Assembly: GCA_030019205.1 (NCBI GenBank)
Contig: JASEFH010000023.1
Span: 1 to 42,750 of the forward strand
Direction of reading: 5' to 3'
Source of the DNA: Methanomicrobiales archaeon
GTDB taxonomy: Archaea; Halobacteriota; Methanomicrobia; Methanomicrobiales; JACTUA01
Length of the DNA: 42,750 nucleotides
Both the position numbers and the translations under genes were made by a program. A model generated the notes under the pieces. That model saw only the letters and a program-made list of their open reading frames with translations, did no database searches and was not told the DNA's origin. Shown here one piece after another: positions 12,706 to 29,251 of this stretch (its first letter is position 1; every line of letters starts with the position of its first letter).

Positions 12706-13890
12706 TCAGGGGAACAATGAGAAGAGGTTCTCGAGCCATGTGCGGACGGCAGCGATGCACGCCTCCACGCCGCCGAAGGGTTCACCGGGCGGTTGCGGGA
12801 CCGCGGCGGCATTCTGCCCGCGATCTGCCTCCCCCGCGGGTTCGCGGTGCGGCGGGGGTGTCACGGGCATCGACGGTCCTCCCGCCCCCTCCGGCGGTCG
12901 AATCGGGATCAGCGGGGATCGCTCGGACCAGCCGTAGATGTAGCCAACCGATGCCGGTGTCGTGAACCAGCACCTCCCCTCGCCGTCCAGGAAGAGCCTC
13001 CTCACCCGGCTGCCCCAGAGCCCTTCGGGTTTGCCGATGTGGGACTGTATCTGCCCTTCTACCGCGAGGAAGATGCCGCTGTCGGTCGCGAGAAGGAGTT
13101 CGCCCGCCGGCGTGCGTGCGACATCCAGGATCTCCTCCGTGCGGGGGAAGAGCGCATCGACCCGGATCTCGATCGTCGGGGAATGCCCCCGCCGCAGGTG
13201 GTAGACGTGCGTGCCGTTGAAGAGGAGGATGCCGCCCGTGGGGTCGCTTCGGAGTTCGCGGATGCCGATCCAGCTGCCGGGGAGCGGCTGGAAACGGACA
13301 GGTTCGGACCCGTTCTCGAGCACGAAGACGCCCGCTTCACCACCGGCGAAGTAGACCGCTCCGCTCTCGGGATCCCGCGCCATGCTGTATATGTGGTTGC
13401 AGGATAGCCCGCTCTCCCCGTGGGGCTTGAACCAGGTCCATGTGCCGTTGCGGTAGCGGTGCAGGCCGGCATCCCCGCTGGCGATCCACATCGCGTCGTC
13501 CTGACGCAGGATGTCCTGGACGATCAGGTTCTTCAGCAGCTGCTGGTCCCGGAAAGTGGTGAATCCGCTGCCGTTGTACCACTGCAGACCCGTCGAGTAA
13601 CCGATCCAGAGCGTCCCTTCCGCGTCCCGCTCCAGCGAGAGTACCCGGTCGCTCAGGATGCCTTCCCCCCGCCGGGAGTGGTTCGGGTGGAGGGTGCGCC
13701 AGGAGCCGTCGAAGATGGCGAGCCCGTTGTCTGTGGCGAGGTAGCATTCGCCGTCCCTGCCGAGGACCATGTCGCTCACCCGCACCGAGGGGACCTGGTC
13801 CAGCCCGGGCGAGAACTGGACGATGCCGCCCTGCGCGTTCCCGATCGCACAGACGACGAGGCAGAGGAGAACGGCTACAGCTCGATGCAT
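12706..13890 (-). CDS. Secreted beta-propeller protein at the end of the che operon
   Basis: A 394-residue exported protein. Residues 1-20 form a Sec-type signal peptide (MHRAVAVLLCLVVCAIGNAQ). The rest repeats a blade pattern of about 40-45 residues seen in two-component-regulator propellers: DGECYLATDNGLAIFDG, GTLWIGYSTGLQWYNG, AMWIASGDAGLHRYRNG, GAVYFAGGEAGVFVLENG, GELLLATDSGIFLAVEG, GRCWFTTPASVGYIYG. A Pro-rich linker and a short hydrophobic C-terminal helix follow. No kinase or membrane sensor domain is attached. The start at 13890 lies inside cheD (16-bp overlap); an in-frame ATG eight codons earlier is possible. Position suggests co-expression with chemotaxis; a ligand-binding or cell-surface role is inference. 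Confidence 0.8.
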   Translation of the reverse strand: MHRAVAVLLCLVVCAIGNAQGGIVQFSPGLDQVPSVRVSDMVLGRDGECYLATDNGLAIFDGSWRTLHPNHSRRGEGILSDRVLSLERDAEGTLWIGYSTGLQWYNGSGFTTFRDQQLLKNLIVQDILRQDDAMWIASGDAGLHRYRNGTWTWFKPHGESGLSCNHIYSMARDPESGAVYFAGGEAGVFVLENGSEPVRFQPLPGSWIGIRELRSDPTGGILLFNGTHVYHLRRGHSPTIEIRVDALFPRTEEILDVARTPAGELLLATDSGIFLAVEGQIQSHIGKPEGLWGSRVRRLFLDGEGRCWFTTPASVGYIYGWSERSPLIPIRPPEGAGGPSMPVTPPPHREPAGEADRGQNAAAVPQPPGEPFGGVEACIAAVRTWLENLFSLFP

Positions 13891-14360
13891 GTGCCGTCCG
13901 CCCTTCGAATGCATACCTTCCCGTTCGCGCGCGGATAGTATACGAGCGAGCGCCCGAAGGTGCCGCCGGTCTCTTCGGCCCGGATGCGGATGCGGTGCTC
14001 GTGCAGGAGAAGCCGGAGCGCTGTGACGTTCCTCTCGCCGATGTTCAGTGCGCCGCACAAATTCCCGAACATGGTCGATCCGCCCACCAGGAGGGCCGCG
14101 ACCGATCCGTTCCTGCAGCCCTGCTCCCGCAGACCCGAGAGCAGCACCTCCAGGGCGCTGTCGGCGTACTTACCGGGGCGATCCCGTCTCCCGTTTGCCG
14201 CGGGCAGCATGACGTGCGCCATGCCTCCCAGCGACCGGACCTCATCGTGCAGGATGAGCGCCACGCAGGATCCCAGCCCGATGGTGGACAGAGGGGTGCA
14301 GCCGATCCGGTACTCGCCGATGCCCACGACGGTCGCATCCCTGCATACTGCCTCCCCCAT
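13875..14360 (-). CDS. cheD: CheD, chemoreceptor glutamine deamidase
   Basis: CheD deamidates glutamines of methyl-accepting chemotaxis proteins and binds CheC, raising its CheY-P phosphatase activity. In archaea it also contacts CheF. The 161-residue protein carries the family's GLGSCVALILHD with catalytic Cys32, and AHVMLP with His49; Thr26 completes a triad whose spacing equals that of Thermotoga CheD (T21, C27, H44). The later LLVGGSTMFG and NIGERN motifs are also present. It starts eight nucleotides after the cheC stop and overlaps the propeller gene at its end. Confidence 0.96.
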   Translation of the reverse strand: MGEAVCRDATVVGIGEYRIGCTPLSTIGLGSCVALILHDEVRSLGGMAHVMLPAANGRRDRPGKYADSALEVLLSGLREQGCRNGSVAALLVGGSTMFGNLCGALNIGERNVTALRLLLHEHRIRIRAEETGGTFGRSLVYYPRANGKVCIRRADGTCIEL

Positions 14361-18347: not shown

Positions 18348-19154
18348 TTATTTCTTATCTGGATTTTTAACAGCATCTGATATGTATCTCACACCTTTTG
18401 GCGTGAGCTGGACCTCCCTTCGAACGCACACCACCTGGGCAATCTCCAGACCGATCAGCCTGTCGAACACCGCCTCCAGCTGCTTCTGGGAGATCGAGAG
18501 CATGTTCTCGATCGCATGGGAGTCCATGCCGCTGTACACCAGCATCGCCACCTGGGCGGAGAGGGGATCGAGCTCGTCCCCCCTCATGTCCATCTCACGG
18601 GTGGCGTCTTTGAGGAAGTTATAGAGCACCTGCAGCGTTGAGAGCGGGCAGAGCACGAAACTCGTGATCACCTCGTTCCGCTCCAGATGGTCGAGCTTGA
18701 TGACGTCGGTCTGCTTCCCCTGCACCTCACGCTGGGTCAGTTCGATCGATGCCACTTCGGTCAGGGGAACGCAGACCTGCTTCTCCTGGCTCACGAACCA
18801 GATCCCGGACTTCAAGACGGCAACGGCCCCTTTCTCCCAGCGTGCGTTCGTGACGAGGACGCCGCCCCGTATCGCCGGCGACATGAAGTACGCCATCAGC
18901 CGGTATGCACTGCAGGAGACGGTGATCCTGCGCTTCAGGATCTGGAGCACCTTCTCCACGGAGGCGATCTTCAGCGTCGTCCCGTCCTTGAGGGTGACGC
19001 TGAGCAGGCTCTTCCTCTCCTGGACGTCGACGATGGACTTGTACGGGATCTCCCTTCCGAGCGGTGCGCCGATCGAGAGCGCCTCCCCGTCGAGACCGAC
19101 GCTGCTGACAACCCATCCGCCATCATGCTCCAGTTTTACGGGGAGTTTCTGCAC
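18348..19154 (-). CDS. cheF: CheF, archaeal adaptor between CheY and the archaellum
   Basis: CheF is the archaea-specific link that takes CheY output to the archaellum switch; in haloarchaea it contacts CheY, CheD and the ArlC/D/E proteins. The 268-residue protein shows the two-part CheF make-up: a beta-rich N-terminal half (LGREIPYKSIVDVQERKSLLSVTLKDG, then SPAIRGGVLVTNARWEKGAVAVLKSGIWFVSQ) and a helical C-terminal part resembling a winged helix (IENMLSISQKQLEAVFDRLIGLEIAQVV...LTPKGVRYI). Start codon GTG with GAGGGGG seven bases upstream. Its place between the arl genes and cheY agrees with this role. Named from architecture and context rather than a catalytic motif. Confidence 0.82.
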   Translation of the reverse strand: MQKLPVKLEHDGGWVVSSVGLDGEALSIGAPLGREIPYKSIVDVQERKSLLSVTLKDGTTLKIASVEKVLQILKRRITVSCSAYRLMAYFMSPAIRGGVLVTNARWEKGAVAVLKSGIWFVSQEKQVCVPLTEVASIELTQREVQGKQTDVIKLDHLERNEVITSFVLCPLSTLQVLYNFLKDATREMDMRGDELDPLSAQVAMLVYSGMDSHAIENMLSISQKQLEAVFDRLIGLEIAQVVCVRREVQLTPKGVRYISDAVKNPDKK

Positions 19155-19166
19155 GTTCGAGCCCCC

Positions 19167-20192
19167 TCACGTTCGTAAGCTCCTGAGCTTCCCGAGCGTC
19201 TCCTCCAGCTCTCTCTCCAGGTCCCGTGCATCCACCTTCGTATCCTTCAGATCCCGAACGAGGCTCAAATCGAGGCCCCTTCGCATCGGGGCGATGTCTG
19301 CCCGAAGGGCGGAGAGGAGTTCATCCCCGGTGCTTCCCGATGCAAACGCCAGCATATCCTCCCCCGGCGCCTCCCCCGTCGGGTTCGCATCCACCTTCGG
19401 CGGAGCGGGGGGCTGCGGGGGGGGCGGGGTCCTTACGGGGGCAGTGCCGTCCGGCAGACCGGGGTCGACGGCATCGAGATCCGCGTCCGCGAGGTCCTCG
19501 AACTGACTGGCGATCGCATCCATGCCGTCCAAATCGTCGAGACCGGCCAGCCCGTTCTCGTGCGCCATCAGGATCTCGTCGACATCGTCAGTCTCCTGAT
19601 CGACCCGGACGGGCGTCTCCTCGCCCAGCAGAGATGCGTCCAGTCCCTGGAGGTCGTCCATCTCGTATCCGGACTCCTCCGCGGAATCCATCAGCAGCCC
19701 GTCCTCCAGCTGCGCAGAGGAGAGAGCCAGAAAGGGATCGGCGGGATCGGCGGCGGAGCCCCCGCCCGGAGCGGCTGGTTTCTGGAGCGCCGGCGGCGCC
19801 CGCGGGCTCGCCGGGCTGTCGGCGAGTGCTTCGTCCAGCAGCTCGTCGATCTTCCGCATGCGCACCTCCGGATCGTTCCCGCGGGTCTGGAACCGTGCGA
19901 CTCCCGCCCGCAGGGCGGCGATGAAACCCGAGAACGGCAACCGAAGCGCGGTCCGCTTCTTCCCCGGCACCGCCTCGCCCTTCGGGGGCGGGGGGGTCAT
20001 TCTGGGAGATTCCTGCCCTTTTTTCTCCGTTCTGCCCCCCGGCCGGAGGGATCCGGTCAGGATCATCACCATGAAGCCGGTCAGGAAGGCGGCGCTGATG
20101 AGGATGGGGAGCGGCGCGTCCAGGAAGACCAGGACGGATCCGGCCGCGACGACGGTGACGAGGAGGATGCACCTCCGCGATCGCTGCTGCAT
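19167..20192 (-). CDS. Unrecognised acidic membrane protein between arlJ and cheF
   Basis: A 341-residue protein I cannot assign. Two adjacent hydrophobic helices at about 9-24 and 28-47 anchor the N-terminus. A basic, Pro/Lys-rich segment (50-100) follows, then a short helix RMRKIDELLDEAL. Residues 160-250 are strikingly acidic and Leu/Asp-rich, with recurring short phrases (MDDLQGLDASLL, VDEILMAHENGL, LDDLDGMDAIA, FEDLADADLDAVD). A poly-Pro linker (254-265) leads to a charged C-terminal helix (about 290-340, LERELEETLGKLRSL). The gene begins 1 nt after arlJ and ends 12 nt before cheF, so it is made with motor and adaptor. A scaffold at the motor's cytoplasmic face, perhaps standing in for part of ArlC/D/E, is my inference. 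Confidence 0.85.
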   Translation of the reverse strand: MQQRSRRCILLVTVVAAGSVLVFLDAPLPILISAAFLTGFMVMILTGSLRPGGRTEKKGQESPRMTPPPPKGEAVPGKKRTALRLPFSGFIAALRAGVARFQTRGNDPEVRMRKIDELLDEALADSPASPRAPPALQKPAAPGGGSAADPADPFLALSSAQLEDGLLMDSAEESGYEMDDLQGLDASLLGEETPVRVDQETDDVDEILMAHENGLAGLDDLDGMDAIASQFEDLADADLDAVDPGLPDGTAPVRTPPPPQPPAPPKVDANPTGEAPGEDMLAFASGSTGDELLSALRADIAPMRRGLDLSLVRDLKDTKVDARDLERELEETLGKLRSLRT

Positions 20193-20193
20193 C

Positions 20194-21789
20194 TCACGCA
20201 CCTCCGAGACCGGGGATGTCGAAGAACATGTGAACGGCGATCGGGGCGGCGATGTAGAGGGCGCCCGTGATGATGCAGAGAAGGCTGGCAAAGAAGTAGA
20301 ACATGTACCGGTCCCCTCCGGCGACGATCTTGCCGGCGATGACGTTGAAGAGGGTCAGCAGGGAGATGATAATCACGACAAAGACGGTCATCTGCCCCTC
20401 GGGGAAGTTCACGAAGAGGCCCATGCCGCCGAGGGCCTGCCCCCCGACGGAGGATGGGCCCGAGAGCGCCGACTCCGATCCGCCGAACTGCTCCATGACC
20501 GCCGCGATCCCCTTCGCCATCAGGAGCAGGATGTGGAAGAGGAAGAGGAAGATCCCCACCATGGCCGCGTGCATCGGGATGAGCAGCACGATGAACCCCT
20601 TGTAGAACATGTCGCGCTTCTCCCGCAGCAGCACCTGCTCGAGCATCGAGGAGCCGATGATCTGGCCGATACGGTCCGGTGAACCGCCGAGCTCCACGGC
20701 GTCCCGGAAGATGTTCATGTACTTGTAGATCAGGTTGCTGCCGCTCTCGCCGATGAACCGCTCCCAGCTCCTCTTCTCATCCAGGCCAAGGTTCAGTTTG
20801 GAGTACACGGAGTCGATGAGAGGTTCGAGGTGGATCAGGGATTTGCGGTCCACCTCCGCCAGCGCGAAGACGGTGTTGATCCCCTTTCCGCCCATCACCG
20901 AACCCAGGCTGCGGATGAAGGTGGGGAAATCCCGATCCCGCTGCACGATGTTGGTGTCGTCGACGAAGCCGATGAAGCCGAGCGGGGCGAGGAGGACGCC
21001 GGCGAGGAGGAAGACCATGCCGAAGCCCCCCCCGAGCAGGAGGAGGAGCAGGCTCCCGACGACCGCGACAGGCAGCACGAGCCTCTCGATGCGGCGGATC
21101 ATCGCCTGCTCCCGGGAGCACCACTGCGGCATGCGGTGGGTCCTGACGTCGTCGGGCACCGACCGGTACATGATGGCGAGCCCCATCACCGAGATGGCGA
21201 TGATGAGGAGATAGGCGGTGTTCAGCGAGGACTCGATCCCCTCGGGGGAGTAGATGGCGACCGATATCATGATGATGATGCCGACGAGCGATGCCGAGAA
21301 GAGCATGGCGATGTAGGCATCGCCCCACTTCTTCAGCATCTCGAGGCCCTGCTCGAAGGTGTTTCTGTAGACCGATCTTACGGTCTCCAGCTCCCTTGTT
21401 AGAAAATCCTCGTCGGGGACGCCGGACTCGATGGAGTTGGCGTAGCGGTTGAGCAGGCTCCGCAGCATCTCGTTCTCCACCTTGTCGGCGACCAGAAGCA
21501 GCCCCTCGACGTAGCTGTAGTTCCACCTCCGCACGTACTTCTCGGCCTTCTCGATATAGCGGGACGGGACGTACTCCCTCCGCTCTGAGGTATATGCGAA
21601 GATCTCCGGGCGGGTCACACCGGCGGTGGTGATGGCGGCCATGTAGGTGCTCATGAAGAGGAGATCGGCGCCCATCTTCTTGTTCTCCTTCACCCGCCGG
21701 AGCAGGGCGGAAACCCTCTTTGCGAGGTCGGCGAACGGCAGGCTTCCCCCGCTGCCGTTCCGCACCACCGAAGCGGCGTTCTCGAACAT
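20194..21789 (-). CDS. arlJ: ArlJ (FlaJ), archaellum membrane platform protein
   Basis: The polytopic core of the archaellum motor, homologous to the TadB/GspF platform proteins, on which the ArlI ATPase acts. Of 531 residues, cytoplasmic N-terminal domains include the GADLLFMSTYMAAITTAGVTRPEIF motif. Membrane segments fall at about 175-195, 205-225, 255-290 (with many Leu/Gly), 410-440, 480-500 and 505-525. A large cytoplasmic loop holds the second conserved region (FPTFIRSLGSVMGGKGINTVFALAEVD, then YKYMNIFRDAVELGG). The ATG at 21789 was chosen (TGATATG, one base after the arlI stop, GGTGG upstream); a GTG at 21798 inside arlI is the alternative. Confidence 0.95.
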   Translation of the reverse strand: MFENAASVVRNGSGGSLPFADLAKRVSALLRRVKENKKMGADLLFMSTYMAAITTAGVTRPEIFAYTSERREYVPSRYIEKAEKYVRRWNYSYVEGLLLVADKVENEMLRSLLNRYANSIESGVPDEDFLTRELETVRSVYRNTFEQGLEMLKKWGDAYIAMLFSASLVGIIIMISVAIYSPEGIESSLNTAYLLIIAISVMGLAIMYRSVPDDVRTHRMPQWCSREQAMIRRIERLVLPVAVVGSLLLLLLGGGFGMVFLLAGVLLAPLGFIGFVDDTNIVQRDRDFPTFIRSLGSVMGGKGINTVFALAEVDRKSLIHLEPLIDSVYSKLNLGLDEKRSWERFIGESGSNLIYKYMNIFRDAVELGGSPDRIGQIIGSSMLEQVLLREKRDMFYKGFIVLLIPMHAAMVGIFLFLFHILLLMAKGIAAVMEQFGGSESALSGPSSVGGQALGGMGLFVNFPEGQMTVFVVIIISLLTLFNVIAGKIVAGGDRYMFYFFASLLCIITGALYIAAPIAVHMFFDIPGLGGA

Positions 21790-25376: not shown

Positions 25377-26246
25377 TTATGCCCTGTCCTTCGTCGGAAT
25401 CCAGGACTCTTCACTATCCTGCACCGGATCCCTGGTTTTTGAGACAGCCGTCCGCCGTTTCTGTTCCATCAGCACCTCGATCATGTCCCGGTCCAGTGAG
25501 TTGTCGTTCGGATCCAGGATCCGGTTGAGGGAATAGAGCTCCTGCACGAACTCGTCAGATCCCATCTCATGCTGGTCCCCGATAGACGGCGGCATGAGAC
25601 GGGCGATCTCCCGCACCTGTTCCCGATCCTCTTTCGTGATGTAACCCATGGCGCGGTACGAATCCAGCATCATCTCCAGCCGGTCATGGCCGTACTTCGT
25701 CACTGTCTTGCGCGTCCACTCGAAGAGCCGGTGCACTTTCTGAAGGCGAATCCTCTCCTGTCCCCGTTTCGGATGGTCGTCGCGGATCTCCTTCGGAGCG
25801 GACAGCTGGGAACGGAGGGTTTCGAGCAGCTGCGTATCGATTGCACGAAGAGGTTCCCCCCCCGCGCTCGTGCAGTCCGCATCCTCGGGTGCTGATGCGG
25901 CACCGCATCTGTGCCCGGCAGGACCCGCCTTATCCGTCCCTGCACCCTCGACCTGCGACTCCCGAAGGGCAGCCGCAGCCTCGCGGGCGGCTGCAGCCGC
26001 TTCCCGCGCTGCAGCCGCTTCTTCGCGGGAAGCAGCGCTGTTACGGGCTTCGCTGGGGGAACCCTGCGGCACGACGACGAACGGATTCTCCAGTTCGTTC
26101 ATTCGCTCGCGGATATCGATCAGGAGCCGTTTTATGGAGGTCTTGATGAGGTCGACCTCCTCCTGCAGCTTGAGCAGCTTCACCTCGGGATCGTCTGCCG
26201 AGGCGCTGGAGATGATGTGGTCGACCTGCGCCTGATTCACCGCCAT
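25377..26246 (-). CDS. ArlD/ArlE-type archaellum switch protein
   Basis: A cytoplasmic protein of 289 residues. It has a coiled coil at about 20-53 (EVKLLKLQEEVDLIKTSI), a Glu-Ala-Arg-rich low-complexity segment at 70-95 built from repeats of AAAREAA, a flexible middle with two Cys, and a conserved C-terminal domain at about 165-265 (LFEWTRKTVTKYGHDRLEMMLDSYRAMGYITKEDREQVREIARLMP). The last resembles the ArlD/E domain in its W...KYG...L...Y...G.I...D pattern. ArlC/D/E proteins form the cytosolic ring that receives the CheF-CheY signal. It opens the motor operon. Whether D, E or a fusion cannot be told, and no second ArlC/D/E gene is present. Confidence 0.75.
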   Translation of the reverse strand: MAVNQAQVDHIISSASADDPEVKLLKLQEEVDLIKTSIKRLLIDIRERMNELENPFVVVPQGSPSEARNSAASREEAAAAREAAAAAREAAAALRESQVEGAGTDKAGPAGHRCGAASAPEDADCTSAGGEPLRAIDTQLLETLRSQLSAPKEIRDDHPKRGQERIRLQKVHRLFEWTRKTVTKYGHDRLEMMLDSYRAMGYITKEDREQVREIARLMPPSIGDQHEMGSDEFVQELYSLNRILDPNDNSLDRDMIEVLMEQKRRTAVSKTRDPVQDSEESWIPTKDRA

Positions 26247-28246: not shown

Positions 28247-29251
28247 TCACGGCCCCTCGTTCCCCTCGCGGATCCGCCGCAGGGCGGCTTCGGCCTTCGC
28301 GCGGACGCCGCCGTCGGCGTCATGGAGCGCCTGCTCCAGGGCCGGAACGGCCCGGGCATCCCCGAAACGGCCCAGGGACTTCGCCGCCTCCCGCCGCACG
28401 AAGCGGTTCTCGTCCCGAAGGGCGGGTATGAGGGGGCCGATCGCGGCAGGTTCGCCGATGATCCGCAGGGCGATCGCCGCTCCCATGCGGACATGCCAGT
28501 CGGCATCGCCCAGCGAGCGGAGCATCGGTTCGACCGCCGCCTCTCCCATGCCCGCGAGCGCCTGCACCGCACTCTCCCGCATGGACCGCCTTTCGTCTTT
28601 CATCGCCTCGATCAGCGCATGAATCGCCCGCTCTCCCCCGACCTTCCCCAGGGATCGCGCCGCCTCCTCCCGCACGGCGGGGTCCTCGTCGCGGAGGGCC
28701 CGGATGAGAGGATCGATGACCCTGGGATCCCGTTTCCCGCCCAGGGTGCGGACCGCCTCCTCCCGCATCCGTGCATCCTTCAGGCGCAGCGCCTCGATGC
28801 ACCATCCGATCTCGTCCGATACAGGGGGTTTCTGATGCGGCTGACCGCGATCGGCGGCATCCCCGGATCGCGGCACGGACTCCTGCCGCCGGCATCGCGC
28901 GAGCAGGGCGAGGGCGGAGACGACCCATATATCGATACCGGCGTTGAGCACGGCGAGAACGGGGTCGAGGGTGTGCCCGCTGAAGAAGAGCCACCCCGTC
29001 AGCAACCCGACTGCAGCCACGAGGAGGATCGTCACCTGCAACCCGCGGTGGGGATACCAGAGGGAGACCAGAATGATCGGGATGATGTAGAGGTGGGGGA
29101 GGAGGTAGTAGACCTGGGGGATGATCGGCTGCCCGCTCACGGCGTAGACGGTCACCAGGAGGGAGACGATGGCGAATGCCCCGATCAACCACAGCCGCAC
29201 GATATCGGTCTCCCTGGCGGAGACCCGCGCGAGGTGCTTTGTCTGCTCCAT
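28247..29251 (-). CDS. Membrane-anchored HEAT-repeat protein
   Basis: A 334-residue protein with four hydrophobic segments at about 20-40, 45-66, 71-92 and 97-118, followed by a linker (120-148) and a soluble C-terminal solenoid of about six 31-residue PBS-lyase-type HEAT repeats (units such as MREEAVRTLGGKRDPRVIDPL, VREEAARSLGKVGGERAIHAL, MRESAVQALAGMGEAAVEPM, VRRREA-like). Such repeats bind protein partners. The start ATG at 29251 has AAGGAG eight bases upstream and a TTTATAG box about 30 bp away. It is next to the archaellin gene and on the same strand, but separated by that gene's promoter. Function unknown. Confidence 0.85.
   Translation of the reverse strand: MEQTKHLARVSARETDIVRLWLIGAFAIVSLLVTVYAVSGQPIIPQVYYLLPHLYIIPIILVSLWYPHRGLQVTILLVAAVGLLTGWLFFSGHTLDPVLAVLNAGIDIWVVSALALLARCRRQESVPRSGDAADRGQPHQKPPVSDEIGWCIEALRLKDARMREEAVRTLGGKRDPRVIDPLIRALRDEDPAVREEAARSLGKVGGERAIHALIEAMKDERRSMRESAVQALAGMGEAAVEPMLRSLGDADWHVRMGAAIALRIIGEPAAIGPLIPALRDENRFVRREAAKSLGRFGDARAVPALEQALHDADGGVRAKAEAALRRIREGNEGP

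Follow-up and report, generated by a model that had tools for sequence, protein, structure and literature searches.

The crenarchaeal ring scaffold ArlX (FlaX) has one transmembrane (TM) segment, ArlCDE have none, and it is through ArlH that ArlCDE are joined to the core of the archaellum (PMC8978795). In P. furiosus, narrow connections between the motor and the membrane have been seen (PMC5517150). It is still open what holds the cytoplasmic ring of Euryarchaeota at the membrane, and of which proteins the polar structures and the connections from motor to membrane consist (PMC8978795, PMC5517150). Operons with the gene order arlG-arlF are of the fla2/arl2 type, found in Methanomicrobia and Archaeoglobus (PMC1914349, PMC12488501).

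A gene encoding the arlJ-next protein, here called X, was examined in a stretch of 42,750 nucleotides (the window). Compared by anatomy and operon, X resembles ArlX in being encoded in an archaellum operon, of the arl2 type, and in having a predicted N-terminal TM anchor followed by a predicted cytoplasmic body. However, the ArlX gene lies upstream of the arlG/F/H/I/J block, whereas X follows arlJ in all loci, and X, with its two TM helices here and a small two-helix module at the C-terminus, is an acidic and largely disordered protein. ArlX itself forms rings of about 30 nm and binds ArlI and ArlH. X also resembles ArlC/D/E, which act on the cytoplasmic side of the same motor and are encoded in the same operon, but these proteins share no profile similarity with X, and the operon already has its own ArlDE.

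Locus and predicted anatomy of X

The following genes were located in the window.

19167..20192 (-): gene X (arlJ-next protein), intact ORF of 341 aa
20194..21798 (-): arlJ, directly upstream of X; T2SSF (Pfam)
18348..19154 (-): cheF, downstream neighbour of X, in this order only and when present; PF04283 (Pfam)
25377..26246 (-): single ArlC/D/E-type protein of the cluster; PF04659, slightly below its cut-off

The X ORF starts with ATG at 20192 and ends with a stop at 19167-19169, giving a coding region of 19170-20192 (-). The arlJ stop ends at 20194, leaving a 1-nt gap before X, and the GTG of cheF lies at 19154, 12 nt after the X stop; both spacings agree with the sequence-only reading of this DNA, as does its statement that the cluster holds one ArlD/E-type protein. 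ArlJ, CheF, ArlI, ArlH and the che genes in the window were confirmed by Pfam. Two profiles were used for X, namely A1, from an alignment of 35 X orthologues, and A4, covering the C-terminal domain. The parts of X are as follows.

20124..20186 (-): TM helix 1 (aa 3-23); AlphaFold helix 3-23, pLDDT ~80; hydropathy 8-24
20055..20111 (-): TM helix 2 (aa 28-46); AlphaFold 28-46; hydropathy 30-46; conserved in A1
19818..19862 (-): conserved 'KIDELLD' segment (aa 111-125; KID segment); conservation in A1
19428..19742 (-): acidic Asp/Leu-rich region (aa 151-255), with the short conserved phrases DPF..L, V.EIL.AH and L..LD.IDLDEIE
19338..19427 (-): Pro-rich linker (aa 256-285), 10 Pro in 30 residues
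19170..19337 (-): C-terminal two-helix domain (aa 286-341); pLDDT 77-91 over aa 291-340; A4 profile; phylum-wide part

Hydropathy and AlphaFold both recovered the two N-terminal membrane helices that had been read from the sequence, and these form a hairpin around a D-x-P turn. Composition counts likewise bear out the basic segment, the acidic Asp/Leu region and the Pro linker described earlier. The basic/Pro segment at residues 51-110 contains 12 K/R against 5 D/E, and the acidic region at residues 151-255 contains 30 D/E against 2 K/R, a composition whose acidity arises in a window of 4 of 2000 shuffles. The C-terminal part is charged, as proposed, but AlphaFold predicts a two-helix hairpin (289-316 and 322-340) instead of a single helix. 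These two helices have the highest AlphaFold confidence outside the membrane part, and the domain follows the pattern DDDL..LKSD.KK....SLLRDLKD.KV.A.DL..ELE..L. The AlphaFold model of X, built with 24 sequences, has a mean pLDDT of 59.8 and a pTM of 0.19, indicating no global fold but good local helices. About 290 aa after the two TM helices are predicted to be cytoplasmic, with the N and C termini probably both inside.

In the A1 alignment, mean conservation (BLOSUM) peaks at 2.15 in C-terminal helix a and 2.12 in the N-tail; C-terminal helix b scores 1.71, the KID segment 1.67 and the TM hairpin 1.61, and the acidic phrases go up to 1.1. The linkers score 0.1-0.6, and those flanking the KID segment 0.08-0.47.

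No relative was found in Pfam, NCBIfam and PDB sequence searches with X and its orthologues, and a PDB fold search with the X model gave no match. PF04659 and PF05377 did not match X; one of the 35 members reached E 0.067 to PF05377. Comparison by hhalign showed no similarity between X and the operon's ArlDE (probability 0.3-0.4%) and no profile similarity between X and CheF. Searches of openly accessible literature retrieved no description of a gene after arlJ/flaJ. A 2016 census reports diverged FlaC/D/E components and 191 linked arCOGs (PMC4858521), and an arCOG number for X may exist already.

Distribution of X in Methanomicrobiales

A total of 199 genomes of the order Methanomicrobiales, including Methanolinea, Methanoregula and Methanocalculus, were surveyed. 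Profile A1 detected X in 150 of these genomes, while ArlI was found in 149 and CheF in 138. X and ArlI occur together in 146 genomes, showing that X co-occurs with the archaellum. X was found without ArlI in G110, G126, G171 and G188, and ArlI without X in G089, G173 and G195; all seven are draft genomes with completeness of 74-85% (91% in G089). In all 60 inspected genomes of the order, the start of X lies no more than about 30 nt from the arlJ stop. Homologues in the same place in 60 genomes indicate that the observation of X is more than chance.

Two disrupted copies were observed. In G001 (locus L075, 7846-9012), a gene judged by eye to be transposase-like (388 aa) splits X between the acidic region and the C-terminal domain, with arlJ and cheF intact beside it, and is thus a natural disruption. 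In G017 (locus L077, single contig), X is frameshifted between the KID segment and the acidic region, through either sequencing error or real loss. Such damage could mean that X is dispensable or that these two strains do not swim.

X in other families of the phylum

The A4 profile detected X in four further families of the phylum (f8, f9, f12 and f14). In the loci examined, X is directly after arlJ, except for a fragment in G433 and the matches at L153/L154. The G433 fragment (L063, 8186-8518) is a 110-aa ORF apart from arlJ, in which the C-terminal domain of X occurs a second time. The L153/L154 matches, from family f10, are false positives that by eye belong to a Cas-like protein. The X found earlier as a 'lineage-specific' protein therefore extends well past its order, with homologues directly after arlJ in several other families. 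Operons with X beyond the order show the arlG-arlF gene order, and f8, f9 and f14 probably belong to the named arl2 groups.

ArlI matches with E values of about 1e-110 to 1e-130 were not counted as archaellum, since they are shorter, at about 550 aa, and resemble type IV pilus ATPases of other kinds. Families f10 and f24 and the f8 genera g86/g97 are archaellate and were missed by A4, yet there too arlJ is followed by an ORF, which starts -4 to +119 nt from the arlJ stop. These arlJ-next ORFs have no TM segment and a C-terminal layout similar to that of X. One of them, L163, matched A4 with E 6.6e-5 in a set of 5733 ORFs; of the six non-Cas matches that come next, five are arlJ-next ORFs as well (E 0.1-1.3). 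By sequence, these matches are suggestive of homology to X, significantly for L163 and weakly for the others.

Taken across the phylum, the C-terminal domain of X is constant and the anchor varies, with two TM helices in the X of the window, one in other families and none in some lineages. This pattern points to the C-terminal domain as a binding site and to the N-terminus as a replaceable tether.

Relationship of X to CheF

CheF, the neighbour of X in the order, is a soluble PH-domain protein, and X differs from it also in staying where CheF is lost. X was found without CheF in 12 of the 150 genomes, three of these being contig ends (G026, G182 and G200). The sequence-only reading had raised the check whether X always lies between arlJ and cheF; this holds on the arlJ side in the inspected genomes and fails on the cheF side in several of these 12. 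CheF-less archaellate genomes with X beside arlJ are G002, G014, G020, G011 and G158. G011 is a closed single contig and 98% complete. G002 is also 98% complete, and about 10 kb read past X are devoid of che genes; its family also includes G014 and G020. In G158, 9 kb past X are free of che genes. CheA-like matches in G002 and G011 are distant (31-34% identity). G132 is CheF-less as well, and matches to arlF, arlG and flagellin are also missing from its cluster; because this cluster may be decaying, G132 was left out of the support for X without CheF. The retention of X in CheF-less genomes ties it to arlJ, not to CheF.

Docking of CheF had been suggested as a core role of X, in which the acidic helices would attach to the PH domains of CheF and recruit it to the motor. 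Such a dock agrees with the adjacency of the two genes in the order, with the presence of X in every one of the 138 CheF genomes, and with a degenerate acidic region in CheF-less genera of the window's family (L050, L051 and L072). The suggestion was nevertheless not upheld, since X is kept beside arlJ without CheF, and in other families cheF is remote, lying about 70 kb from X in G218 and on another contig in G236, G293 and G317. The acidic phrases also persist in CheF-less G132, G157 and G158, and CheF of H. volcanii docks on ArlCDE (PMC9126983). The two proteins were modelled as an artificial fusion, in which the single stop between the in-frame genes was treated as a residue and readthrough is not claimed. 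CheF folded in this fusion, and the acidic region stayed unordered, at lower confidence than in X alone; the model reports no contact confidence, so it amounts to an absence of support for docking, not a disproof. Taken as a whole, a CheF dock is improbable. X goes with the motor of operons of the arl2 type (gene order arlG-arlF) and not with CheF, and looks like an overlooked archaellum motor part rather than a chemotaxis accessory.

Two assignments for segments of X were considered and rejected. The acidic phrases do not behave as a CheF-dependent module: they are lost in CheF-less f1 genera and partly in G011, yet kept in the three CheF-less genomes named above. The KID segment resembles the 'EIDALL' sequence quoted in PMC9126983 and was considered as a FliM-like CheY-binding site. 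It is retained in che-less G002 and, in a changed form, also in G014 and G020, and the CheY-binding reading was therefore dropped.

The genes beyond X vary. In L108 and L109 (g13 genomes), cheF runs opposite to X and shares about 47-51% identity with the CheF of the window, with no further che gene found adjoining it in L108. One Methanolinea genome (UBA277; L021 and L092) has a tandem pair of cheF copies after X. In f10 loci (L160, L169-L172 and L174), the next gene downstream of the arlJ-next ORF codes for a receiver domain fused either to HEAT repeats or to a C-terminal extension, which may stand in for CheF. These f10 genes would suit a general signalling adaptor, by which X connects ArlJ/ArlI to whichever signal protein is encoded next, CheF here and receiver-domain proteins in f10. 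However, the f10 ORFs are weak homologues of X, and G014 and G002 (L050 and L051) have neither kind of signal protein but a propeller-like gene directly after X, which makes a general adaptor very improbable. The window itself has a two-component-regulator-propeller gene at 12706-14058, beyond the che cluster.

Putative role of X in the archaellum motor

The sequence-only reading placed a lineage-specific scaffold at the cytoplasmic face of ArlJ. Apart from the restriction to one lineage, this remains reasonable, since X is archaellum-linked, lies beside arlJ and has a predicted membrane anchor with a cytoplasmic body, as a scaffold or adaptor would. With ArlCDE devoid of a TM segment, ArlX in possession of one and ArlH joining ArlCDE to the core, a tether is a vacancy that X could fill.

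X may well be a constitutive component of the arl2-type archaellum motor, with the C-terminal domain binding the cytoplasmic motor and the N-terminus tethering it beside ArlJ. The C-terminal two-helix domain (aa 286-341) would bind a conserved cytoplasmic part of the motor, most likely the ArlH/ArlDE ring and possibly loops of ArlI or ArlJ. The TM hairpin and the long flexible acidic linker would keep this domain at the membrane beside ArlJ. X would thereby supply the membrane tether that ArlC/D/E are without, as ArlX does in Crenarchaeota. Both the binding partner and the tethering role are presumed from the evidence above. If the arlJ-next ORFs of f8 g86/g97, f10 and f24 are orthologues, their missing TM anchor means that tethering is not the universal function. 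More tentatively, X could be the universal last subunit of the phylum's arl2-type operons, combining a two-helix motor-binding module and a lineage-variable tether in an ArlX-like anchor role.

The most constant and tightest link of X is to arlJ, whose stop adjoins its start, and this would also fit an assembly factor or regulator of ArlJ, such as a translationally coupled chaperone or gate, that is not a lasting part of the motor. Translational coupling is, however, common for structural subunits too, and such a factor leaves the long acidic region unexplained; we consider it rather unlikely. The bacterial polar hubs FimV/HubP and PopZ have a flexible, acidic body and, at the C-terminus, a conserved helical module. 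By analogy, the anchor, acidic flexible region, Pro linker and C-terminal helices of X might form a membrane-tethered polar organiser, which would collect motors and might also build or bind the polar cap, whose proteins in Euryarchaeota remain to be identified (PMC5517150). This likeness would be one of working only, as the hubs belong to a different machine and neither a sequence nor a fold match to them was found. Polar caps have also been described in Thermococcales and H. salinarum, both outside the X searches, and a polar organiser appears unlikely.

As a candidate motor component, X accompanies arlJ in almost all arl2-type operons examined in the phylum, carries no family name and is directly testable; it would extend the accepted parts list of the archaellum in methanogens. 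Elsewhere in the window, a HEAT-repeat membrane protein is encoded at 28247-29251, upstream of the archaellin gene, and a homologue occupies the same place in L033, L034, L039 and L051.
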